A stretch of 64,000 nucleotides of DNA from an uncultured Acidobacteriia bacterium (GTDB lineage Bacteria > Acidobacteriota > Terriglobia > Bryobacterales > Bryobacteraceae): assembly GCA_903900705.1 (NCBI GenBank), contig CAIUOG010000074.1, positions 1 through 64,000 of the forward strand, written 5' to 3'. This document shows, one piece after another, positions 42,958 through 51,904 of this stretch (position 1 is the stretch's first letter; each line of letters opens with the position of its first letter). The position numbers were made by a program, and so were the translations under genes. The notes beneath the pieces were generated by a model. It saw only the letters and a program-made list of their open reading frames with translations. It ran no database searches and was not told the DNA's origin.

Positions 42958-44403
42958 ATGCTTCGTCCCGGCCTTCTCACTCTTTTACTCGCTTTTCCGG
43001 CGCTCTCCCAAACCACCGCCATCACCAATGTCAACGTGGTGGACGTGGTGCGCGGCGACGTCCGCGCAGGCCAGACCGTGCTGGTGTCAAACGGGAAAAT
43101 CGAGGCCATCGGCGCGGCGGCGAGCGTCGCCATTCCCTCCGGTGCGAAACGTATCGCGGGCGATGGGCGGTTTCTGATTCCCGGCCTCTGGGACATGCAC
43201 GTCCACCTGCGCAGTGATCAGGCAAGGCCCAACATCCGCATGCCGGAAGACAACGCGCCGATGCTGGATCTCTTCCTGCCCAACGGAATCGTGGGAATCC
43301 GGGAAATGGGCGGCGATCTTTCTGACGAGGTTCTGTCGTGGCGTGAGGAAATCCGGAAGGGCATTCTGACGGGCCCGAAGATCCTGACCGCCGGACGCAA
43401 ACTGGATAACGAACCGCCCGCCTGGGCCGGGTCACTGGGTGTGAAAAACGCGCAGGAAGCCCGCGAGGGCGTGCGGCAGATGAAGCAGGTGGGCGCGGAC
43501 TTCATCAAGGTCTATTTCCGCCGCACCCCGCCCGAAGTGCTGCGAGCCGTAGTCGACGAGGCCCACAAAAACAATCTGAAAGTGACCGGCCACAAACCTT
43601 CCAATATGTCGATTCAGGAATTCTTCGAAACCGGTATCGACGGCATGGAGCACTCCCAGTACCTGGCCACCACGGACCGCGACGAGTACGACAAAATGAC
43701 CCGCGAAGCGGCGAAGCGCGAGGGCACCGCGTGGGCGATGGACGGGACGGAATCCGCCGCGCGCCTGCTCGCCATGCAGGATGACGCCGAGGGTGCGAAA
43801 GTCTGGAAACTGATGGCCGACCGCAAGTTCTGGGTGACTCCAACCCTGGCGGTAGCCGCCAACGTGATGCAGACCAGCGGCAAAGACTTCGACCAGGATG
43901 AACGCAAACGCTACTTCACCCCCGGCATGTGGGCCACCTGGGACTCGAAATCCAGCTTCCGCCGGCCCATCCAGGGCCGCGCCCTGACGCTGCGCGAGGT
44001 TTCCAACAAGCGCTGGGATGCCCTGATGGTCGCCGCCTACAAAATGGGCGTGCCCATGATACTCGGCACCGATTGCGGAGCCAACAACAACTACACGATG
44101 CCAGGCTTCTCCATCCACGAAGAGATGCAGGCCATTGTGAAGGCCGGGCTGACGCCCGCGGATGCGCTGCGCATGGCCACCATCAACCCGGCAAAATGGC
44201 GCGGAGATGCGGAAACAACAGGCACGATTGAAAAGGGGAAGGTAGCCGATCTGGTTCTGCTGCGGTCGAATCCGCTCGAAAACATCCGCCACACCCAGGA
44301 GATCGACGCGGTGCTGCAGAACGGCAAGGTCTACGCGAGGCAGGATCTGGACAACATGCTGAAGCGCGCCGAAGAATCCTCGGCGCGCCACAGAGCAAAA
44401 TAA
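42958..44403 (+). CDS. Exported amidohydrolase family protein (imidazolonepropionase/prolidase-like)
   Basis: About 481 residues with a signal peptide (MLRPGLLTLLLAFPALSQ). Composite beta-sandwich INVVDVVRGDVRAGQTVLVSNGKIEAIG, metal motif LIPGLWDMHVHLRS (H-x-H), KVTGHKPSNMSIQEF with the next His, MEHSQYL, and the late LGTDCGANNNYTMPGFSIHEEMQA with the catalytic Asp. ATG 42958 is chosen as it starts the signal peptide; an earlier Met in this frame would overlap the divergent methyltransferase. Substrate unknown. The 3' end and stop are in a 13-bp tandem repeat. Confidence 0.88.
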   Translation: MLRPGLLTLLLAFPALSQTTAITNVNVVDVVRGDVRAGQTVLVSNGKIEAIGAAASVAIPSGAKRIAGDGRFLIPGLWDMHVHLRSDQARPNIRMPEDNAPMLDLFLPNGIVGIREMGGDLSDEVLSWREEIRKGILTGPKILTAGRKLDNEPPAWAGSLGVKNAQEAREGVRQMKQVGADFIKVYFRRTPPEVLRAVVDEAHKNNLKVTGHKPSNMSIQEFFETGIDGMEHSQYLATTDRDEYDKMTREAAKREGTAWAMDGTESAARLLAMQDDAEGAKVWKLMADRKFWVTPTLAVAANVMQTSGKDFDQDERKRYFTPGMWATWDSKSSFRRPIQGRALTLREVSNKRWDALMVAAYKMGVPMILGTDCGANNNYTMPGFSIHEEMQAIVKAGLTPADALRMATINPAKWRGDAETTGTIEKGKVADLVLLRSNPLENIRHTQEIDAVLQNGKVYARQDLDNMLKRAEESSARHRAK

Positions 44404-44448
44404 CGACGCAAAATAACGACGCGAAATAGCTACGCAGAATAACTACGA
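44397..44448. repeat. Four 13-bp tandem repeats across two convergent stop codons
   Basis: AAAATAACGACGC at 44397-44409, identical at 44410-44422, then GAAATAGCTACGC (44423-44435) and AGAATAACTACGA (44436-44448). The amidohydrolase TAA (44401-44403) is in unit one and the convergent epimerase stop (44443-44445) in unit four. Duplication by slippage is the likely origin. Confidence 0.85.
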
Positions 44449-45441
44449 CAGCAGCTTCTTCAGGTTCTCGAAACTGGTCTTCGCGGCCGCGATGGAATCG
44501 CCCTCCACCGCGCTGTCCTGCTCAATGCAGAAGTGCTTCATGCCCGCCAGTTTCGCCTGGGTGAAGATCGGTTTGTAGTCGATTTCCCCCGTGCCCACCG
44601 GCACCAGCTTCGCCGCCCGCATCCGTTCCGACTGCGTCATCGCCGCCGTCATGGCCTTGATGCCGTTCGCGTCTTTCACGTGCCAGAGTTCGAAGCGCCC
44701 CGGGTTCTTCTTGAACATTTCGGGAATGTTCTGCCCCGCCACCGTCGCCCAGCCGATATCCAACTGCATGGCGACGAGCGCCGGGTCCGTTTCTGCCAGC
44801 AGAATGTCGTAAGGCCGCCTGGTGGTGCTGCCTTCCACGAACGCGAATTCGTTGGTGTGGTTGTGGATCAGCATCTTCATACCGAACTTTTTCACGATCG
44901 CGCCGTTACGGTTGAGGGCTTCGGCCTGGCGTTTGATCGACTCTTCGGTCGGCGCCTGAGGCTGCGGACGCGGGGGCGGAGGCGCATTGACGGCGGGCGG
45001 CGCGGCGCGGTCCGGCACACCCGGCCCCCGTCCCCTGCCCCCGCCAATGCCGCGGGCGGCCCGCACTTCCGTGTACTGGATGCCCATCAGCTGGAAGCCT
45101 TCCAGCTGCTTTTCAAGTTCCGGGCCTTCGGTGGCGCCCACATGCGTGCTCGGCATGGAAAGGCCCAGGCGGTCCAGCATGGCGCGGAACTGCTTCGGCT
45201 CCATCCCGGCATAGTCCGACGCGGGCTCAATTTCCTTGTAGCCGATAGCGGCCAGCTTCGCGAGCGTGCCTTCGTAGTCTTTCGCGGTGAGATCGCGGAC
45301 CGTGAAAAGTTCCAGCCCGATCTGCGTTTTCCAGTCGGCCGCCTGCGCGAGCGACGGACCGGCCAGGTACAACGCGCTGCCGAGGGCCGCCGCTTCCTTC
45401 AGAAATGTGCGGCGGTCCCGCGCGCCGTCTTGATGATTCAT
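44443..45441 (-). CDS. Exported sugar phosphate isomerase/epimerase-like protein
   Basis: 332 residues. Leader with R-R-T-F-L-K then a hydrophobic stretch (ALGSALYLAGPSLAQA) fits Tat or Sec export. Barrel strands: QIGLELFTVRDLT, GYKEIEPASDYAGM, GLSMPSTHVG, GMKMLIHNHTNEF, VAMQLDIGWATVAG, FELWHVKDA and KHFCIEQDS. The pattern matches AP-endonuclease-2 family proteins, with His, Glu and Asp metal ligands. A Pro/Gly-rich 45-residue insertion (ARGIGGGRG to PQAPTEES) interrupts the barrel. Substrate unknown; similar in plan to 9094-10104. Confidence 0.85.
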   Translation of the reverse strand: MNHQDGARDRRTFLKEAAALGSALYLAGPSLAQAADWKTQIGLELFTVRDLTAKDYEGTLAKLAAIGYKEIEPASDYAGMEPKQFRAMLDRLGLSMPSTHVGATEGPELEKQLEGFQLMGIQYTEVRAARGIGGGRGRGPGVPDRAAPPAVNAPPPPRPQPQAPTEESIKRQAEALNRNGAIVKKFGMKMLIHNHTNEFAFVEGSTTRRPYDILLAETDPALVAMQLDIGWATVAGQNIPEMFKKNPGRFELWHVKDANGIKAMTAAMTQSERMRAAKLVPVGTGEIDYKPIFTQAKLAGMKHFCIEQDSAVEGDSIAAAKTSFENLKKLLS

Positions 45442-45506
45442 GTGAAATGACTCCCGCCGGGTAGTCTATCTCATACGCGCTATACTCAATCGCCGGAGGA
45501 GCCGAT

Positions 45507-47618
45507 TTGCGACAGTTCATCCGTTCTTTGTTCGCGCGCTTCTCCGAAACGAACCGTTCGATCCCGGAGATCAACCGCCTGCGAGCCGCCTGGGCCGGCA
45601 GGAGCGACGCCGAACTGGCTGAAATCAGCCGCGCCGCCACCACCGCACTCGAAGAGACGCTGGCTCTGACTTCCATCCTCGCGAAGCGCTCTCTGGGCCT
45701 CGATCCTTTCGACGTACAACTGCGGGGCGCGCTCGCGCTCGCACACGGTCGAATCGCCGAGATGCAGACCGGCGAGGGCAAGACCCTCGCGGCGGTCCCG
45801 GCAATTGTCTGGCTGGCGCGGCAAAAGGCCGGGGTCCACGTGATGACCGTGAATGACTACCTGGCCCGGCGCGATGCGAGGTGGATGGGCGACATCTACG
45901 CCCGCCTCGGCCTCACCGTCGGCTGCGTGCAGCAGGGCATGTCCCCGGATGAACGCCGCCGGGCCTACGCCTGCGACATCACCTACGCCACGGCCAACGA
46001 AATCGGGTTCGATTTTTTGCGGGATCAACTGGTGCCGCATGCCTCCGAGATGGTCCACCGGTCCACTTCGGAATTCGCCGTGGCCGTGATCGACGAGGCG
46101 GATTCCATTCTGATCGACGAAGCCCGCATCCCGCTCGTCATCGCCGGCGGCGAGTTTGGCGACGACATGCTCGCCAACCGCGCGGACCGCGTTGTGCGCC
46201 GGCTGCGGCCAGGCTTTCATTTCACTCTCGGCGAACATCTCCGGAATACGGGACTGACGGACGAAGGGATTCGCGTCGTCGAGTCGGAATTCTCCTGTGG
46301 CAATCTCTTCGCGGAACACAACCTCGTTCTGCACAGCGCCGTGCAGGATGCGCTCCATGCCCATGCCCTGCTGCGGCGCGACGTGGACTACATCGTGAAA
46401 GAGGGTGTCATCGAATCCGTCGATGAATTTAAAGGGCGTGTGGCGCAGGATCGCCGCTGGCCCGCCGGACTCCACAGCGCCATCGAAGCGAAGGAGGGCG
46501 TGGCGATCCGCACGCAGGGTCGCGTGCTGGGCTCCATCACGCTGCAAAACCTGGTGGCCCGCTACCGGCACGTCTGCGGCATGACCGGCACCGCGGCCAC
46601 GCAGGCGGATGAATTTCTGAAGATCTACAACCTGGAGGTGGAGGTGATCCCCACCAATCGCCCCATGATCCGCATCGACCACCCGGATGTGGTCTGCCGC
46701 ACCGTTGCGGAGAAAGAACGGCTGCTGCTCGAAGAGATCCGCTCCACGTGGCAAACGGGCAGACCGGTTCTGATCGGAACCGCCAGCGTGCACGAATCGG
46801 AACGGCTGAGTGTTCTGCTGCAGGACATTCCGCATCAGGTACTCAATGCCCGGCATGAGGAACAGGAAGCCGCTCTCATCGCGCGCGCCGGGGAGCGCGG
46901 CGCGGTCACCATTTCGACCAACATGGCCGGTCGCGGAACCGATATCCAACTCGGCCCCGGCGTAGCAGAACTGGGTGGCCTGCATATCGTGGGGACCAAC
47001 CGGCATGAAGCGCGGCGTATCGATTTCCAGCTGCGGGGCCGCGCCGGGCGGCAGGGCGACCCAGGCAGTTCCCGCTTCATCGTATCCCTCCAGGACGACA
47101 TTATGGTCCGCTACGGCGAGGACGTGTCTCGCCTGCAACACACCCCGGAATCCGTGCAGCGCATTGTGGAAGGGAAAAATCTGGAGATCCGGCTGTTCCT
47201 GCAGAAGTACGAAGGGGCGCTCGAAGGACAACGGCAGATGATCCATGCGGAACGACAGCGGATTCTCACCGGTGAGTCTCAGGAGTTCCAGAGGCTGATG
47301 GCGTTGCGGACGCTGGACGATCTGTGGTCTGAGCACCTGGCCGAGGTGACGGAGTTGCGCGCCGGCATCCAGTGGGTGGCCTGGGGAGGCCGGGATCCGC
47401 TGTTTGAGTTTCTCACCCGGGTAGACCAGATGTTCCGGGACTTAGTGGAATCCTTGCCCGGAGAGATCCAAAGGCGCACCGCGGAAGCGAAGGAGGAGGG
47501 GGTCGATCCTTCCCAACGCGGTGCCACCTGGACTTACCTGACCACGGACAATCCATTCGGGAGCCTGAGCGACCGAATCCGGAAGGCGATTGTCAGCAGG
47601 GTCTTTGGTAAGAACTAA
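45507..47618 (+). CDS. Shortened SecA-type ATPase (SecA2-like)
   Basis: 703 residues against about 840-950 for housekeeping SecA. TTG start with GGAGGA 6 nt upstream. DEAD motor 1 has AEMQTGEGKTLAAVPA (Walker A 88-93), HVMTVNDYLARRDARWM and AVIDEADSILIDEARIPL. The preprotein-binding hinge follows, ending DRRWPAGLHSAIEAKEG. Motor 2 has GMTGTAATQADEF, IGTASVHESERL and ISTNMAGRGTDIQLG. After QKYEGALEGQRQMIHAERQRIL it runs almost directly into a shortened helical finger (ALRTLDDLWSEHLAEVTELRAGI). The helical wing domain and the C-terminal Cys-rich zinc tail are missing. Export of specific proteins is inferred. Confidence 0.9.
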   Translation: MRQFIRSLFARFSETNRSIPEINRLRAAWAGRSDAELAEISRAATTALEETLALTSILAKRSLGLDPFDVQLRGALALAHGRIAEMQTGEGKTLAAVPAIVWLARQKAGVHVMTVNDYLARRDARWMGDIYARLGLTVGCVQQGMSPDERRRAYACDITYATANEIGFDFLRDQLVPHASEMVHRSTSEFAVAVIDEADSILIDEARIPLVIAGGEFGDDMLANRADRVVRRLRPGFHFTLGEHLRNTGLTDEGIRVVESEFSCGNLFAEHNLVLHSAVQDALHAHALLRRDVDYIVKEGVIESVDEFKGRVAQDRRWPAGLHSAIEAKEGVAIRTQGRVLGSITLQNLVARYRHVCGMTGTAATQADEFLKIYNLEVEVIPTNRPMIRIDHPDVVCRTVAEKERLLLEEIRSTWQTGRPVLIGTASVHESERLSVLLQDIPHQVLNARHEEQEAALIARAGERGAVTISTNMAGRGTDIQLGPGVAELGGLHIVGTNRHEARRIDFQLRGRAGRQGDPGSSRFIVSLQDDIMVRYGEDVSRLQHTPESVQRIVEGKNLEIRLFLQKYEGALEGQRQMIHAERQRILTGESQEFQRLMALRTLDDLWSEHLAEVTELRAGIQWVAWGGRDPLFEFLTRVDQMFRDLVESLPGEIQRRTAEAKEEGVDPSQRGATWTYLTTDNPFGSLSDRIRKAIVSRVFGKN

Positions 47619-47624
47619 GACTGC

Positions 47625-48806
47625 TTAACGGCTGCGCTGGCTTTTGGCGTTCGCAGCACGGACATATTCAAACTCCGCCGGGGCAGCCGCAGCCGCGGAC
47701 CGGGGACCGACGGTTGGATCGGCCATCTCCAGAAGTTGCCCGATCGGCATATCCTCGGCGAGTTTGACGAACGAAAGAATGCTGTCGTCGGAGTCAAAAT
47801 CGACCTGCAGCAGATCGCCGCCGCGAATCTGATCCGAGGCGATCAGGTTGGAGAGCGGATGCACCAGATTGCGTTCGATAGCCCGTTTCAGATGGCGCGC
47901 ACCGTATTTCAAATCCGTCCCTTCCCGCAGCAGGAAATCCTTGGCGGGATTCGTCAGATTGAAAACAAACGGACTCGTCTGAGCACCGTTGAAGATTCTC
48001 TGCTGGAGCATACCGAGTTCCAGGTTCAGGATCTTCTGCAATTCTTCGCTGCCGAGCGACCGGAAAACCACCAGCTTGTCGATGCGGTTCATGAATTCCG
48101 GCGTAAATTTGCGGCGTGCCGCTTCAACGCCCGCCCGGGAAATCTTGTCGTCGAGCCCTGCTTCCACCACGCCCTCGGCATAGCGGTGTTCCATTTCGGA
48201 AGCCGCGAAGCCAACGCTGGGACGCATAATGGAACCCATTTCGGTTGCGCCCAGGTTACTGGTCATGAAAATCATGGCCCGGGAGAAATCCACCCGCCGG
48301 TTGTCGCCCAGCGTCAGCGTGCCTTTATCGAGGATTCCCAGCAGCAGGTTCCAGAGTGCGTCGCTGGCCTTTTCAATCTCATCGAAGAGGACAAAACTGA
48401 TCTTGACCTTCTCCGTCTGAAACTGATTCAGCACTTCCTGGCTCAGCAGCGGGTGCGTCTCGCGATGACCGAGATAACCGGGAGGCGAGCCAATCAGTTT
48501 GGCAATCTCATGGCTGTGCTGAAACTCCGCGCAATCGATCTTAATGACCGCGCGCATGTCGCCCACCAGCGATTCCGCCGTGGCTTCCACCATACGGGTC
48601 TTACCCGTGCCGGTGGGCCCCAGAAACAGGAAATTCCCGATGGGACGCCCGGGACTGGTCATGCCCGCGAGATACATCTGGTAGATGTTCACGATCTGAG
48701 AGACCGCTTCTTCCTGCCCGATGATTCGCTTCTTCAGATCTCCGTGTAACCTATCCGCATCCTGCCCTGTCAGAGACGGATTTAATTTTTTATTCAGCCG
48801 GACCAT
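47625..48806 (-). CDS. Stand-alone AAA+ ATPase resembling the ClpB/ClpA second domain
   Basis: 393 residues from ATG 48806, where GAGGAGG lies 6 nt upstream. Walker A FLGPTGTGKTRMVEATAESL (63-70), Walker B SFVLFDEIEKASDALWNLLL (139-146), sensor 1 MIFMTSNLGATEMG, Arg finger in FTPEFMNRIDKLVVF and a ClpB-type D2 small domain (AKDFLLREGTDLKYGARHLKRAIERNLVHPL). The Clp N-domain and the D1 ring are absent. Remodelling of protein complexes is inferred; no ClpP tripeptide loop is seen. Convergent with the SecA-like gene (7 nt between stops). Confidence 0.88.
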   Translation of the reverse strand: MVRLNKKLNPSLTGQDADRLHGDLKKRIIGQEEAVSQIVNIYQMYLAGMTSPGRPIGNFLFLGPTGTGKTRMVEATAESLVGDMRAVIKIDCAEFQHSHEIAKLIGSPPGYLGHRETHPLLSQEVLNQFQTEKVKISFVLFDEIEKASDALWNLLLGILDKGTLTLGDNRRVDFSRAMIFMTSNLGATEMGSIMRPSVGFAASEMEHRYAEGVVEAGLDDKISRAGVEAARRKFTPEFMNRIDKLVVFRSLGSEELQKILNLELGMLQQRIFNGAQTSPFVFNLTNPAKDFLLREGTDLKYGARHLKRAIERNLVHPLSNLIASDQIRGGDLLQVDFDSDDSILSFVKLAEDMPIGQLLEMADPTVGPRSAAAAAPAEFEYVRAANAKSQRSR

Positions 48807-48951
48807 TTCGCTCCTCCTCTCAGCGCATTTCGATAATTCTTTATCTGCGCTTCCCTTCCTCGACTCTCTTGCAAGCACGCGCAATGCCAATCTCAAACCG
48901 CCCTCCGATTCACCCAAAACAAGCTCCCGCGTGCAAAACTTAAAACTGTAA

Positions 48952-49680
48952 TTAGGATCTGGAAGCCGGCCGCGATGGCCGAATTTCCACCCGGCTGACC
49001 GTAGTCCGCGCCGGCATTTTCAGCAGCATTGCCACTACTTCCGCAACGTCTTCCGGAGCAATCTTCCACTCAGCGCCCGCAGACGCGCTGTGGCCTCCGA
49101 ACTCCGTCGCAACGCTGCCCGGCATAACACTCGAAACCCGCACGCCATCATTGCGGTGGTCAAGCATCATCGCTTCCGAAAAACCATTCAGGCCGAACTT
49201 TGAAGCGTTGTAGCCGCTGCCGCCGGCGAACGGATTCTTTGCCGCCAGCGAACTGATATTGATAATGTCTCCACTTTGCTGCCGCTTGAATATCGGCAGA
49301 AATTCGTGAGAGCAATAGTAGACGCCGGAAAGATTCAGTCCGATCATCTTCTCCCACTCTTCCGGTTCCAGTTCGGCCACCGGGCGGAAAAAGCCCGCGC
49401 CCGCGTTGTTGATCAGCGCGTCCGCTCCTCCGAACCGCTCCACAACCGCGGCCACCAGCGCCCGGACCTCCGCCAGCTTCGAGACATCCGCGATCATGCC
49501 GAACACCCGTTCCGGCTCCGCCGAAGCGGTGAGCCGCATGACCGCGTTGTCCACTGTGGCCTGCTTCGTACCGCAGATTGCCACGTTCATACCTTCCGCG
49601 AGCAGCCGTTCCGCCACCGCAAAACCAATTCCGCGGGTACCTCCGGTGATGACGGCTGTCTTGTTTTTCATACTGCTCAT
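48952..49680 (-). CDS. Short-chain dehydrogenase/reductase
   Basis: About 242 residues from ATG 49680, chosen because GGGAG lies 7 nt upstream; the frame is longer. Cofactor loop AVITGGTRGIGFAVAERLL, INNAGAGFF near residue 95, SSLAAKNPFAGGSGYNASKFGLNGF with the canonical Ser, Tyr and Lys, and MPGSVATEFGG. A standard NAD(P)-dependent oxidoreductase, unlike the altered SDR at 32187. Substrate unknown. 145 nt separate it from the start of the AAA+ gene; that gap holds a possible sigma-54-like site. Confidence 0.9.
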   Translation of the reverse strand: MSSMKNKTAVITGGTRGIGFAVAERLLAEGMNVAICGTKQATVDNAVMRLTASAEPERVFGMIADVSKLAEVRALVAAVVERFGGADALINNAGAGFFRPVAELEPEEWEKMIGLNLSGVYYCSHEFLPIFKRQQSGDIINISSLAAKNPFAGGSGYNASKFGLNGFSEAMMLDHRNDGVRVSSVMPGSVATEFGGHSASAGAEWKIAPEDVAEVVAMLLKMPARTTVSRVEIRPSRPASRS

Positions 49681-49846
49681 CCACATTCTCCCTTTCACTC
49701 CGACGATGAACAAGACACCCATTGTGATTCAGTAAAAGTCCTGGTGGCGGCGGAATTGCGCTGGATCGCACAGCGCCTATTCCCCTGCGGGAAAAGCGCT
49801 GATGGCGAAGGTTATTATTAAAAACTCAGCCCTTTTTGCCGCCAGA

Positions 49847-51904
49847 ATGAACACTTCCCCCTATCCAGCCACAGCAAAATCCAGCCAGTCTGACGACTAT
49901 CACGGAGAGCGGATCGCAGACCCTTACCGCTGGCTCGAAGACGACCGATCCGCCGAGACCGCCCGATGGGTCGCGGCGCAAAATGCGGTGACGTTCGCCT
50001 GTCTCGACCAGATCCCCTGGCGGCGGGCCCTGCGTGAGCGACTGCGGAAGCTGATCGACTATCCGCGGTACGGCATCCCCCGCCGACGCGGCGACCTCTG
50101 GTTCTTCGCAAAGAATGACGGGCTGCAAAACCAGGCCGTCTGGTACGTCAGGCAGGGGCTCCACGGCACTCCGGAACTGCTGCTGGATCCCAACCTGCTC
50201 TCCGACGACGGGACCGTTGTCCTCAGTCACTTCAGCATCTCGATGGACGCCCGCCACGTCGCCTGCGGCATTTCCAAAGGCGGCTCCGATTGGGTGGAGG
50301 CCCTCATCCTCGACGTGCAAACCCGCCATTTCCTCGACGACCGCGTGCAATGGATCAAGGCCTCCGGACTCGCCTGGGCTTCCGGCGGCTTCTACTACAG
50401 CCGCTACCCCGCGCCCATGGCGGGCCGGGAGATGTCCGGGATGAATGAATTCCATTCCGTCTGGTTTCACCGCGCCGGCACCCCGCAGAGCGAGGACCAG
50501 TTAGTCTGCGAGGACCGCGTCAACCCGCGGCGCTTCCATACCCTCGATACCACGGAAGACCTGCGGTTCGCGGTGCTGAACATCTCCGACCGCGGCCTCG
50601 GAAAGAAGGGGAACGCCGTCTTTTTCCGCGACATTTCCCTGCCGGGCGCCGAGTTCCGGCCCATCATTAGTGAGATTGGCGATGACAGCTGGGATGTCCT
50701 GACCAACGTGGATGACTGCTTCCTGCTGCAAACCAATCACGGCGCGCCCAACGGCAAAGTAGTGCGGTACCGCCCCTCCACCGGCGTGTTCACCGATGTA
50801 TTGCCCGAATGCGATCTGCCGCTCGAATCCACCGCTACCGGCGGGGGCAGACTCTTCGCGCTCTACATGAAGGATGTGGCGACTGAAGTCCGCGTCTTCA
50901 CGCTCGATGGCACGCCCGCGGGCACTGTGCCACTGCCGGCCGTGGGCACGGCAACCGGCTTCCACGGCCTGCACGATGACGATGCGGTGTTCTACAGCTT
51001 CACGTCACTCAACTATCCCCCGACGATCTGCCGCTACGAGATCTCCACAGGCCGGAGCACAGTGGTGCAGTCTCCCGCGATCCCCGGCTTTGAGCCCTCC
51101 GACTACGAAAGTAAGCAGGTCTTTTTCAGCAGCAAAGACGGCACCCGGGTGCCCATGTTTCTGGTGCACCGAAAAGGCCTGCGCCTCGACGGAACCAATC
51201 CCACGCTGCTGAACGGCTACGGCGGATTCAACATCACCATGGCGCCGTCATTCTCCGCGCTGCGACTGGCTTTGCTGGAACAGGGTTTCGTCTTTGCCTG
51301 CGCCAACCTTCGCGGCGGCGGCGAGTACGGCGAAAAATGGCATGAAGCCGGTACGAAGTTGCAAAAGCAGAATGTTTTTGACGACTTTATTGCCGCGGCG
51401 GAATGGCTGATCGCCAATGGCTACACCTCGTCAGAACACCTGGCCGCGAATGGAGGATCAAATGGCGGCCTGCTTTTGGCCGCTGTCATGAATCAGCGCC
51501 CGGACCTCTTCCGCGCCGCCGTGCCACAGGCGGGCGTGATGGACATGCTCCGCTTCCAGAAGTTCACCATCGGCTGGAACTGGATTGCCGACTACGGCTC
51601 CAGCGATAACCCGGCTGAATTCGCGGCACTTCGCGCGTATTCGCCCCTCCACAATGTGAGGCCCGGCGCGAAATACCCGGCCGTGCTCATCACCACCGCC
51701 GATCATGACGACCGCGTGGTACCGGCGCATTCCTTCAAGTACGCCGCCGCGCTGCAGGAGGCCGCCGACCCCGCAAGGCCGGTGCTGATCCGGATCGAAA
51801 CCAATTCCGGCCACGGAGCCAGCAGCACCAGCAAGCAGGTGGAAATTACGGCGGACGTCTACGCCTTTCTGTTGTGCAACCTCGGCGTGACGCCAAAGTT
51901 CTGA
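49847..51904 (+). CDS. Prolyl oligopeptidase family serine peptidase (S9A)
   Basis: About 685 residues. Opens YPATAKSSQSDDYHGERIADPYRWLEDDRSAET, the typical S9A start, then a seven-bladed beta-propeller and the C-terminal alpha/beta hydrolase domain. Catalytic Ser in AANGGSNGGLLLAAVM, Asp in TTADHDDRVVPAHSFKYA, His in ETNSGHGASS. Cleaves after Pro in short peptides. No signal peptide, so cytosolic. Start at ATG 49847 fits homologues; ATG 49802, 15 codons upstream, has a better ribosome site and is possible. Confidence 0.94.
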   Translation: MNTSPYPATAKSSQSDDYHGERIADPYRWLEDDRSAETARWVAAQNAVTFACLDQIPWRRALRERLRKLIDYPRYGIPRRRGDLWFFAKNDGLQNQAVWYVRQGLHGTPELLLDPNLLSDDGTVVLSHFSISMDARHVACGISKGGSDWVEALILDVQTRHFLDDRVQWIKASGLAWASGGFYYSRYPAPMAGREMSGMNEFHSVWFHRAGTPQSEDQLVCEDRVNPRRFHTLDTTEDLRFAVLNISDRGLGKKGNAVFFRDISLPGAEFRPIISEIGDDSWDVLTNVDDCFLLQTNHGAPNGKVVRYRPSTGVFTDVLPECDLPLESTATGGGRLFALYMKDVATEVRVFTLDGTPAGTVPLPAVGTATGFHGLHDDDAVFYSFTSLNYPPTICRYEISTGRSTVVQSPAIPGFEPSDYESKQVFFSSKDGTRVPMFLVHRKGLRLDGTNPTLLNGYGGFNITMAPSFSALRLALLEQGFVFACANLRGGGEYGEKWHEAGTKLQKQNVFDDFIAAAEWLIANGYTSSEHLAANGGSNGGLLLAAVMNQRPDLFRAAVPQAGVMDMLRFQKFTIGWNWIADYGSSDNPAEFAALRAYSPLHNVRPGAKYPAVLITTADHDDRVVPAHSFKYAAALQEAADPARPVLIRIETNSGHGASSTSKQVEITADVYAFLLCNLGVTPKF

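Follow-up and report, generated by a model that had tools for sequence, protein, structure and literature searches.

In this study, we analysed a window of 64,000 nucleotides, by which we mean the whole stretch of DNA examined, from the genome of a soil acidobacterium, and found in it a second, shortened copy of secA. We put the probability at roughly 0.7 that this gene encodes an accessory SecA motor of the actinobacterial and mycobacterial SecA2 clade, which would handle a subset of preproteins via the housekeeping SecYEG. In a tree of 79 hand-picked rows, calculated from 540 columns of the motor and the preprotein cross-linking domain (PPXD) with the wing and tail left out, the window protein falls into one clade of 35 rows (support 100/100), together with 15 acidobacterial rows, 15 rows from other phyla and four actinobacterial SecA2 proteins, two of which are annotated as such and all of which score above the cut-off of the model TIGR04221 (SecA2_Mycobac).

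A shortened second SecA in a soil acidobacterium

The secA2-type open reading frame (45507..47618, + strand, stop codon included) encodes 703 amino acids and begins with a TTG codon, just as an earlier note on this DNA had described it. The same note took the TTG to mean modest expression; the start codon itself stands, but the inference drawn from it is weak, as a Shine-Dalgarno-like GGAGGAG, read directly from the sequence (45495..45501, +), is located 5 bases 5' of the TTG. In five of six relatives an ATG or GTG is found at about the same place, and in the sixth the frame opens with a GTG further upstream. The dN/dS ratios of the window gene against six relatives range from 0.11 to 0.18, values that are rough because dS lies between 1.2 and 2.5, which indicates purifying selection, and the architecture recurs in relatives; the gene is neither a chance frame nor a pseudogene. 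A promoter and terminator scan of positions 45380-47720 returned neither, and an Rfam search of positions 44000-50000 returned no RNA element.

Pfam matches to SecA_DEAD, SecA_PP_bind and P-loop_SecA, together with the motifs, agree with the previous statement that both motor halves and the preprotein-binding part are intact. The Walker A motif TGEGKT (residues 88-93; 45768..45785, +), in which G89 to T93 are invariant in alignment A1, is followed by a Walker B motif that reads DEAD (residues 196-199; 46092..46103, +) compared with DEVD in 29 of the 33 full-length SecA rows, by the PPXD as delimited with PF01043 (residues 223-327; 46173..46487, +), by GMTGTA at residue 358 and TNMAGRGTDI at residue 471, and by the helicase motif VI QLRGRAGRQGDP (residues 508-519; 47028..47063, +). 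Walker A, the DEAD box and motifs III, V and VI are all intact. A two-helix finger with W626 as its finger-tip residue is placed by the model and the alignment at about residues 599-664 (47301..47498, +).

What is missing is the wing and the Cys tail. Alignment with the full-length SecA of the same genome leaves a wing remnant of 11 residues, TGESQEFQRLM (588-598; 47268..47300, +), between the flanking sequences ending in HAERQRIL and beginning with ALRTLDDL, an interval that holds 95 residues in the full-length protein. The loss reported in the earlier note is real, while its figures of about 13 and well over 100 residues become 11 and 95 when measured against this protein. The best match to the wing and scaffold model PF07516 is partial, with positions 130-193 of 200 covering protein residues 592-655. 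As had also been reported, the Cys tail is absent from the window protein, and it is present in the full-length SecA of the same genome; it was found in none of the 35 clade rows and in 30 of the 33 full-length rows.

The genome (6.1 Mb in 179 contigs, listed as 99.87% complete; the window is on contig C74) has two SecA_DEAD matches, the window gene and one on contig C104. The latter is the second, full-length secA that it had been proposed to look for: it encodes 945 amino acids with wing and Cys tail CPCGSGKKYKKCHG and scores above the housekeeping model cut-offs (1246 bits versus 814 and 1138 versus 800). The genome has one SecY match and no second one, as would belong to a SecA2-SecY2 arrangement, and hence represents a SecA2-only arrangement; SecB gave no match in this genome.

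Among 61 genomes, the own one and 60 relatives, a short SecA is present in 23 (G000, G001, G003, G005-G008, G011, G012, G014-G018, G022, G023, G026, G031, G032, G040, G042, G043 and G049; split across two contigs in G016). Another SecA was matched in all 23, with an open frame of more than 900 amino acids in 19; this second SecA is fragmented or at contig ends in G003, G007, G011 and G023. Two incomplete genomes (G039 and G054) have no SecA match at all. An extra SecA-like frame of 798 amino acids, 49-55% identical in pieces, was seen on G017:C815, in a genome with 7% contamination. SecY was matched in 57 of the 61 genomes and in none with a second full-length match; two partial SecY rows each were obtained in G005, G009 and G055, and since these overlap in G005 and G055 an extra partial copy is possible there. 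The short-SecA carriers G003 and G016 are missing a SecY match, presumably through genome incompleteness.

The genes adjoining the window SecA encode a sugar isomerase-like protein, an AAA+ protein and a short-chain dehydrogenase (SDR). In a set of 46 loci, 30 acidobacterial and 16 from elsewhere (among the latter L109, which later fell outside the clade), no conserved operon partner, substrate or chaperone gene was found, and contig ends may hide some; two non-SecA clusters cover five loci each, and one of them holds the short-chain dehydrogenase of the window. The convergent gene (47625..48917, -) encodes a single-domain, ClpB D2-like AAA+ protein lacking the ClpB N-terminal half, and a check of whether relatives share it had been proposed. 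We judge it not to be part of the system: the two genes are near each other in only two of the 30 acidobacterial loci (the window and G006, where an ORF intervenes), strong AAA+ matches occur without a short SecA in G002, G004 and G010, and the short-SecA genomes G040, G042 and G043 have no AAA+ match at 1e-60. At that threshold the AAA+ gene is matched in 48 of the 61 genomes, with frames of about 900 amino acids, probably full-length ClpB, in G048, G050 and G054.

C-terminal motif, predicted structure and possible mode of action

The window protein ends in a motif, TWTYLTTD (residues 674-681; 47526..47549, +), of which W675 and D681 do not vary among the 30 rows of alignment A1, and in place of the Cys tail a basic stretch follows (residues 682-703; 47550..47615, +; modelled helix 687-700 at pLDDT 39-50). 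The pattern xW[TV][YFW]xxx[DE] occurs near the C terminus of 34 of the 35 clade rows, 31 of them in the strict form W-T-Y-x-x-x-D, versus none of the 44 other rows; the one clade row in which it was missed, L096, possibly has a frame shift near its end. The C-terminal end of the mycobacterial SecA2 structure 4uaq carries the same motif. The motif was noticed in this analysis and does not derive from a published definition, and a literature search of mostly open-access texts did not find it in SecA2. Beyond the motif, the tails of the 18 acidobacterial rows of A1 are short and basic (net +2 to +7), and nine of the 12 non-acidobacterial rows end in a hydrophobic tail (17-residue Kyte-Doolittle mean 1.2-2.2). 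In Dawidia soli, a 206-amino-acid piece of the SecA2 C terminus that also bears this motif (L190:4250-4870) was seen about 13 kb from an intact short SecA.

An AlphaFold model based on a 30-row alignment has a mean pLDDT of 82, and in it a long scaffold helix (547-588) leads into finger helices at 593-626 and 631-664. The model superimposes on SecY-engaged SecA with 2.6 Å over 649 residues (6itc) and 2.4 Å over 637 residues (5eul). The rmsd to mycobacterial SecA2 (4uaq) is 11.5 over 634 residues, and B. subtilis SecA scored higher; we read this value as a difference in domain poses and take no proof of membership from it. In the comparison with 1m6n, model residues 1-682 align with chain residues 4-802, and going by these alignment ranges only, the strand with the motif may occupy the place that the C-terminal linker has in 1m6n.

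If the window protein is an export motor, its clamp would bind a subset of unfolded preproteins, and their ATP-driven passage would lead through the single housekeeping SecYEG, either by itself or in concert with the full-length SecA; a model of this kind has been proposed for mycobacteria, whose SecA1 and SecA2 heterodimerize in vitro and are suggested to act at SecYEG as a heterodimer (PMC4457860). The wing touches SecYEG, and it has been suggested that the short wing of SecA2 exposes the substrate site and hampers SecYEG binding (PMC7503281); wing loss here would open the substrate site and weaken or change docking to SecYEG, and loss of the zinc tail would remove the ribosome- or SecB-type step of that tail. 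The linker of the C-terminal tail in E. coli may occupy the substrate groove and thereby autoinhibit the protein (PMC6620043), and the W-T-Y-x-x-x-D strand may assume this clamp-plugging role, a weak idea given that the motif is modelled with low confidence (pLDDT 41-42). Membrane binding may be aided by the basic stretch at the C terminus.

It could also be argued that the protein does not dock with SecYEG and has been reused, for example to regulate the full-length SecA as a heterodimer or as a membrane-bound unfoldase. The contribution of the wing to docking would fit such a role, as would the mostly cytosolic location of the heterodimerizing mycobacterial SecA2 (PMC4457860), the hydrophobic end of the tail in most non-acidobacterial rows and the lack of an operon partner in the loci described above. 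However, finger and clamp are retained, and 15 of the 16 acidobacterial clade rows have an aromatic finger tip, an argument limited by the fact that such a tip occurs in only three of 15 other-phylum and none of four actinobacterial rows. Mycobacterial SecA2, moreover, has been presented as a pathway of protein export (PMC6333443, PMC5945054). We therefore regard such reuse as unlikely and favour an accessory export motor acting via SecYEG.

Descent and spread of the clade

Outside the 35-row clade, the nine acidobacterial full-length SecAs form a separate clade (100/99), and Bacillus-type SecA2 joins the Bacillota SecA (84/94). A third branch (100/98) holds two candidates for the secondary SecA_DEAD proteins of Kamneva et al. 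2015 (PMC4452313), L186 (661 amino acids) and L187 (655 amino acids), both on long branches flagged by the program. This family of second SecA proteins has been described in PVC bacteria, Proteobacteria, Nitrospirae and Chlorobi, as a clade that is related to actinobacterial SecA2 and has HlyD-type neighbours, some members being located apart from such genes; in the main text of that paper, names beginning with Acidobacter- are not mentioned. The window protein is likewise a wing-less second SecA in a Gram-negative host, and it might be assigned to this family, whose loci combine it with HlyD, GAF/HlyD, membrane-peptidase-like and OEP proteins. Such an assignment is very improbable, as the two candidates branch outside the clade, lack the motif and have no aligned finger region, and as no HlyD, membrane peptidase or OEP genes are located beside the window gene. 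L186 adjoins HlyD, GAF-HlyD and OEP genes, and L187 is without such neighbours. The L186 locus of Chitinispirillaceae (L186:986-9944) encodes, besides the 661-amino-acid wing-less SecA, HlyD, GAF-HlyD, a 718-amino-acid protein without a Pfam match and OEP; this metagenome-assembled genome (MAG) contains both a Kamneva-type SecA and a motif-type SecA2.

An independent, lineage-specific duplication of acidobacterial SecA, after which wing and zinc tail were lost convergently, is hardly credible, for even though the strongest wing trimming is commonest among acidobacterial rows, and similarly trimmed clade rows from Cohnella (21) and Dawidia (18) suggest that the region is easily lost, a constraint uniting the acidobacterial short and full-length forms was rejected under the model used (p-AU 2.1e-82, a cost of 165 log-likelihood units), and motif and wing loss are common to actinobacterial SecA2. 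The earlier reading as a SecA2-type paralogue without wing or Cys tail is thus supported by the domains and the second full-length SecA, and its word 'independent' has to be given up in view of the 100/100 clade and the motif common to actinobacterial SecA2. On the same two grounds, the window protein is best read as sharing its ancestry with actinobacterial and mycobacterial SecA2, with a wing remnant that would then have been trimmed further.

The length of the wing region across the tree rows is in line with this picture in most cases. By the measure used for these rows, the wing interval of the window protein is 19 residues; it is 13-54 in 33 of the 35 clade rows, the two others having inserts, and at least 102 in 39 rows outside the clade (33 full-length, six Bacillus-type SecA2). 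The five remaining non-clade rows have intervals of 110, 54 (L109), 64 (L188) and 0-2 (the Kamneva-type pair), so a short interval also occurs in L109 and L188, which counts against it as a mark of the clade. With their long inserts at the wing remnant, Gordonia SecA2 (L151:3788-6304) and an Oscillospiraceae relative (L077:1361-4342) reach intervals of 117 and 161 residues. The wing interval of a planctomycete full-length SecA (L193:502-4047) extends to 353 residues, in line with SecA_SW rearrangements reported for Planctomycetes (PMC4452313).

Inside the clade, the order of the acidobacterial, actinobacterial and other branches has low support (63/44). The genus of the window contains two lineages, one with a wing interval of 19 residues (the window, G006, G018 and others) and one with 43-54 (G001, G007 and G012, the last assigned by length). 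Of the latter lineage, G001 and G007 cluster with G026, a member of another genus, at 100/100, and this grouping suggests transfer, or an old duplication with loss.

The position of the window protein does not follow from the NCBIfam models on their own; it is indicated by the tree, together with the motif and the loss of the wing. It scores 663.5 bits on TIGR04221, below the cut-off of 725, as does its nearest relative L115 from G006 (641), and since the controls, the own full-length SecA (642) and a Bacillus-type SecA2 (621), are at about the same level, this model alone is not decisive. Of the nine proteins of the clade that were scanned, seven exceed its cut-off: Gordonia (1133 bits), Tsukamurella (1113), Nonomuraea (1008), Embleya (960), Sporomusa (846), Clostridium oryzae (751) and the acidobacterial L128 (729.8). 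The best NCBIfam models of the window protein are those for housekeeping SecA, NF009538 (683.5 bits, cut-off 814) and TIGR00963 (671.2, cut-off 800), again below cut-off. We file the protein in the wider SecA2 clade, outside TIGR04221, and its shorter wing remnant probably lowers the TIGR04221 score.

The short SecA gene is rare and patchy. A 36-column profile of the motif (A2), with matches counted at E <=0.01, was found in 20 of 297 genomes of the acidobacterial phylum (the own genome included, two matches being weak), in three of 149 genomes in the phylum of Sporomusa (G061, itself included) and in four of 149 in the phylum of Streptomyces (G071). A species-genome scan with six peptide patterns gave 578 confirmed loci, of which the best 80 were examined; these comprise 12 acidobacterial relatives, one ending at a contig end, and short relatives from Sporomusa, two Cohnella, Clostridium oryzae, C. 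zeae and further Bacillota, two Planctomycetota, the Chitinispirillaceae MAG, Dawidia, another Bacteroidota and a Myxococcota MAG, the rest of the 80 being, as judged by length, mostly full-length SecA or Bacillus-type SecA2. Beyond Actinobacteria, the clade extends to Acidobacteriota, Bacteroidota, Planctomycetota, Myxococcota, Fibrobacterota and Bacillota; MAG contigs make up several of the rows.

Comparison with known systems

SecA2 has been described mainly from Gram-positive and mycobacterial pathogens, and our literature search of mostly open-access texts did not find this SecA2 clade in Acidobacteria. Its range over several phyla and the lack of conserved neighbours in the 46 loci suggest a function outside virulence. 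A wider proposal, that actinobacterial-type SecA2 is no speciality of actinobacteria and represents a widespread stand-alone export motor in which the W-T-Y-x-x-x-D strand takes the place of the zinc-tail linker in plugging the clamp, while a basic or hydrophobic tail anchors the motor at the membrane, is conceivable and is put forward here with considerable doubt. If it were true, soil acidobacteria and others would gain a SecA2-only export route with its own regulatory C terminus. The wider weight of the present findings is limited in that an available NCBI model already covers most of the clade proteins that were scanned, the gene is rare, and the proposed mechanism is carried over from known SecA2.

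With housekeeping SecA (TIGR00963, NF009538), the window protein shares the motor, the PPXD and the two-helix finger, but it is without wing or Cys tail and belongs to a separate clade; the Cys pattern is absent from three of the 33 full-length rows as well. The secondary SecA_DEAD proteins (PMC4452313) resemble it as second, wing-less SecAs of Gram-negative hosts and differ in their HlyD/OEP loci and in the position of the two candidates outside the clade. Bacillus-type SecA2 (TIGR04397) is likewise an accessory SecA without a zinc tail; however, it has kept the wing (interval 102-106), does not have the motif and sits with Bacillota SecA. The SecA2 of Clostridioides difficile (6sxh, 6t4h) is also an accessory SecA without the C-terminal tail but has a full wing (PMC7503281). 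From actinobacterial SecA2 the window protein differs in its acidobacterial host, its score below the TIGR04221 cut-off, its wing interval of 19 residues compared with 40-45 (Gordonia, with its insert, excepted) and the lack of conserved neighbours, whereas the Tsukamurella and Gordonia SecA2 loci have CDP-alcohol phosphatidyltransferase, gcvH, FHA, MerR and nuclease genes in common downstream. It is nonetheless like actinobacterial and mycobacterial SecA2 (TIGR04221; 4uaq) in having a shortened wing, no zinc tail and the W-T-Y-x-x-x-D motif, and in occurring beside a full-length SecA. The kind of protein is therefore already known, and what is added here is its range over several phyla, a near-total loss of the wing and the C-terminal motif.
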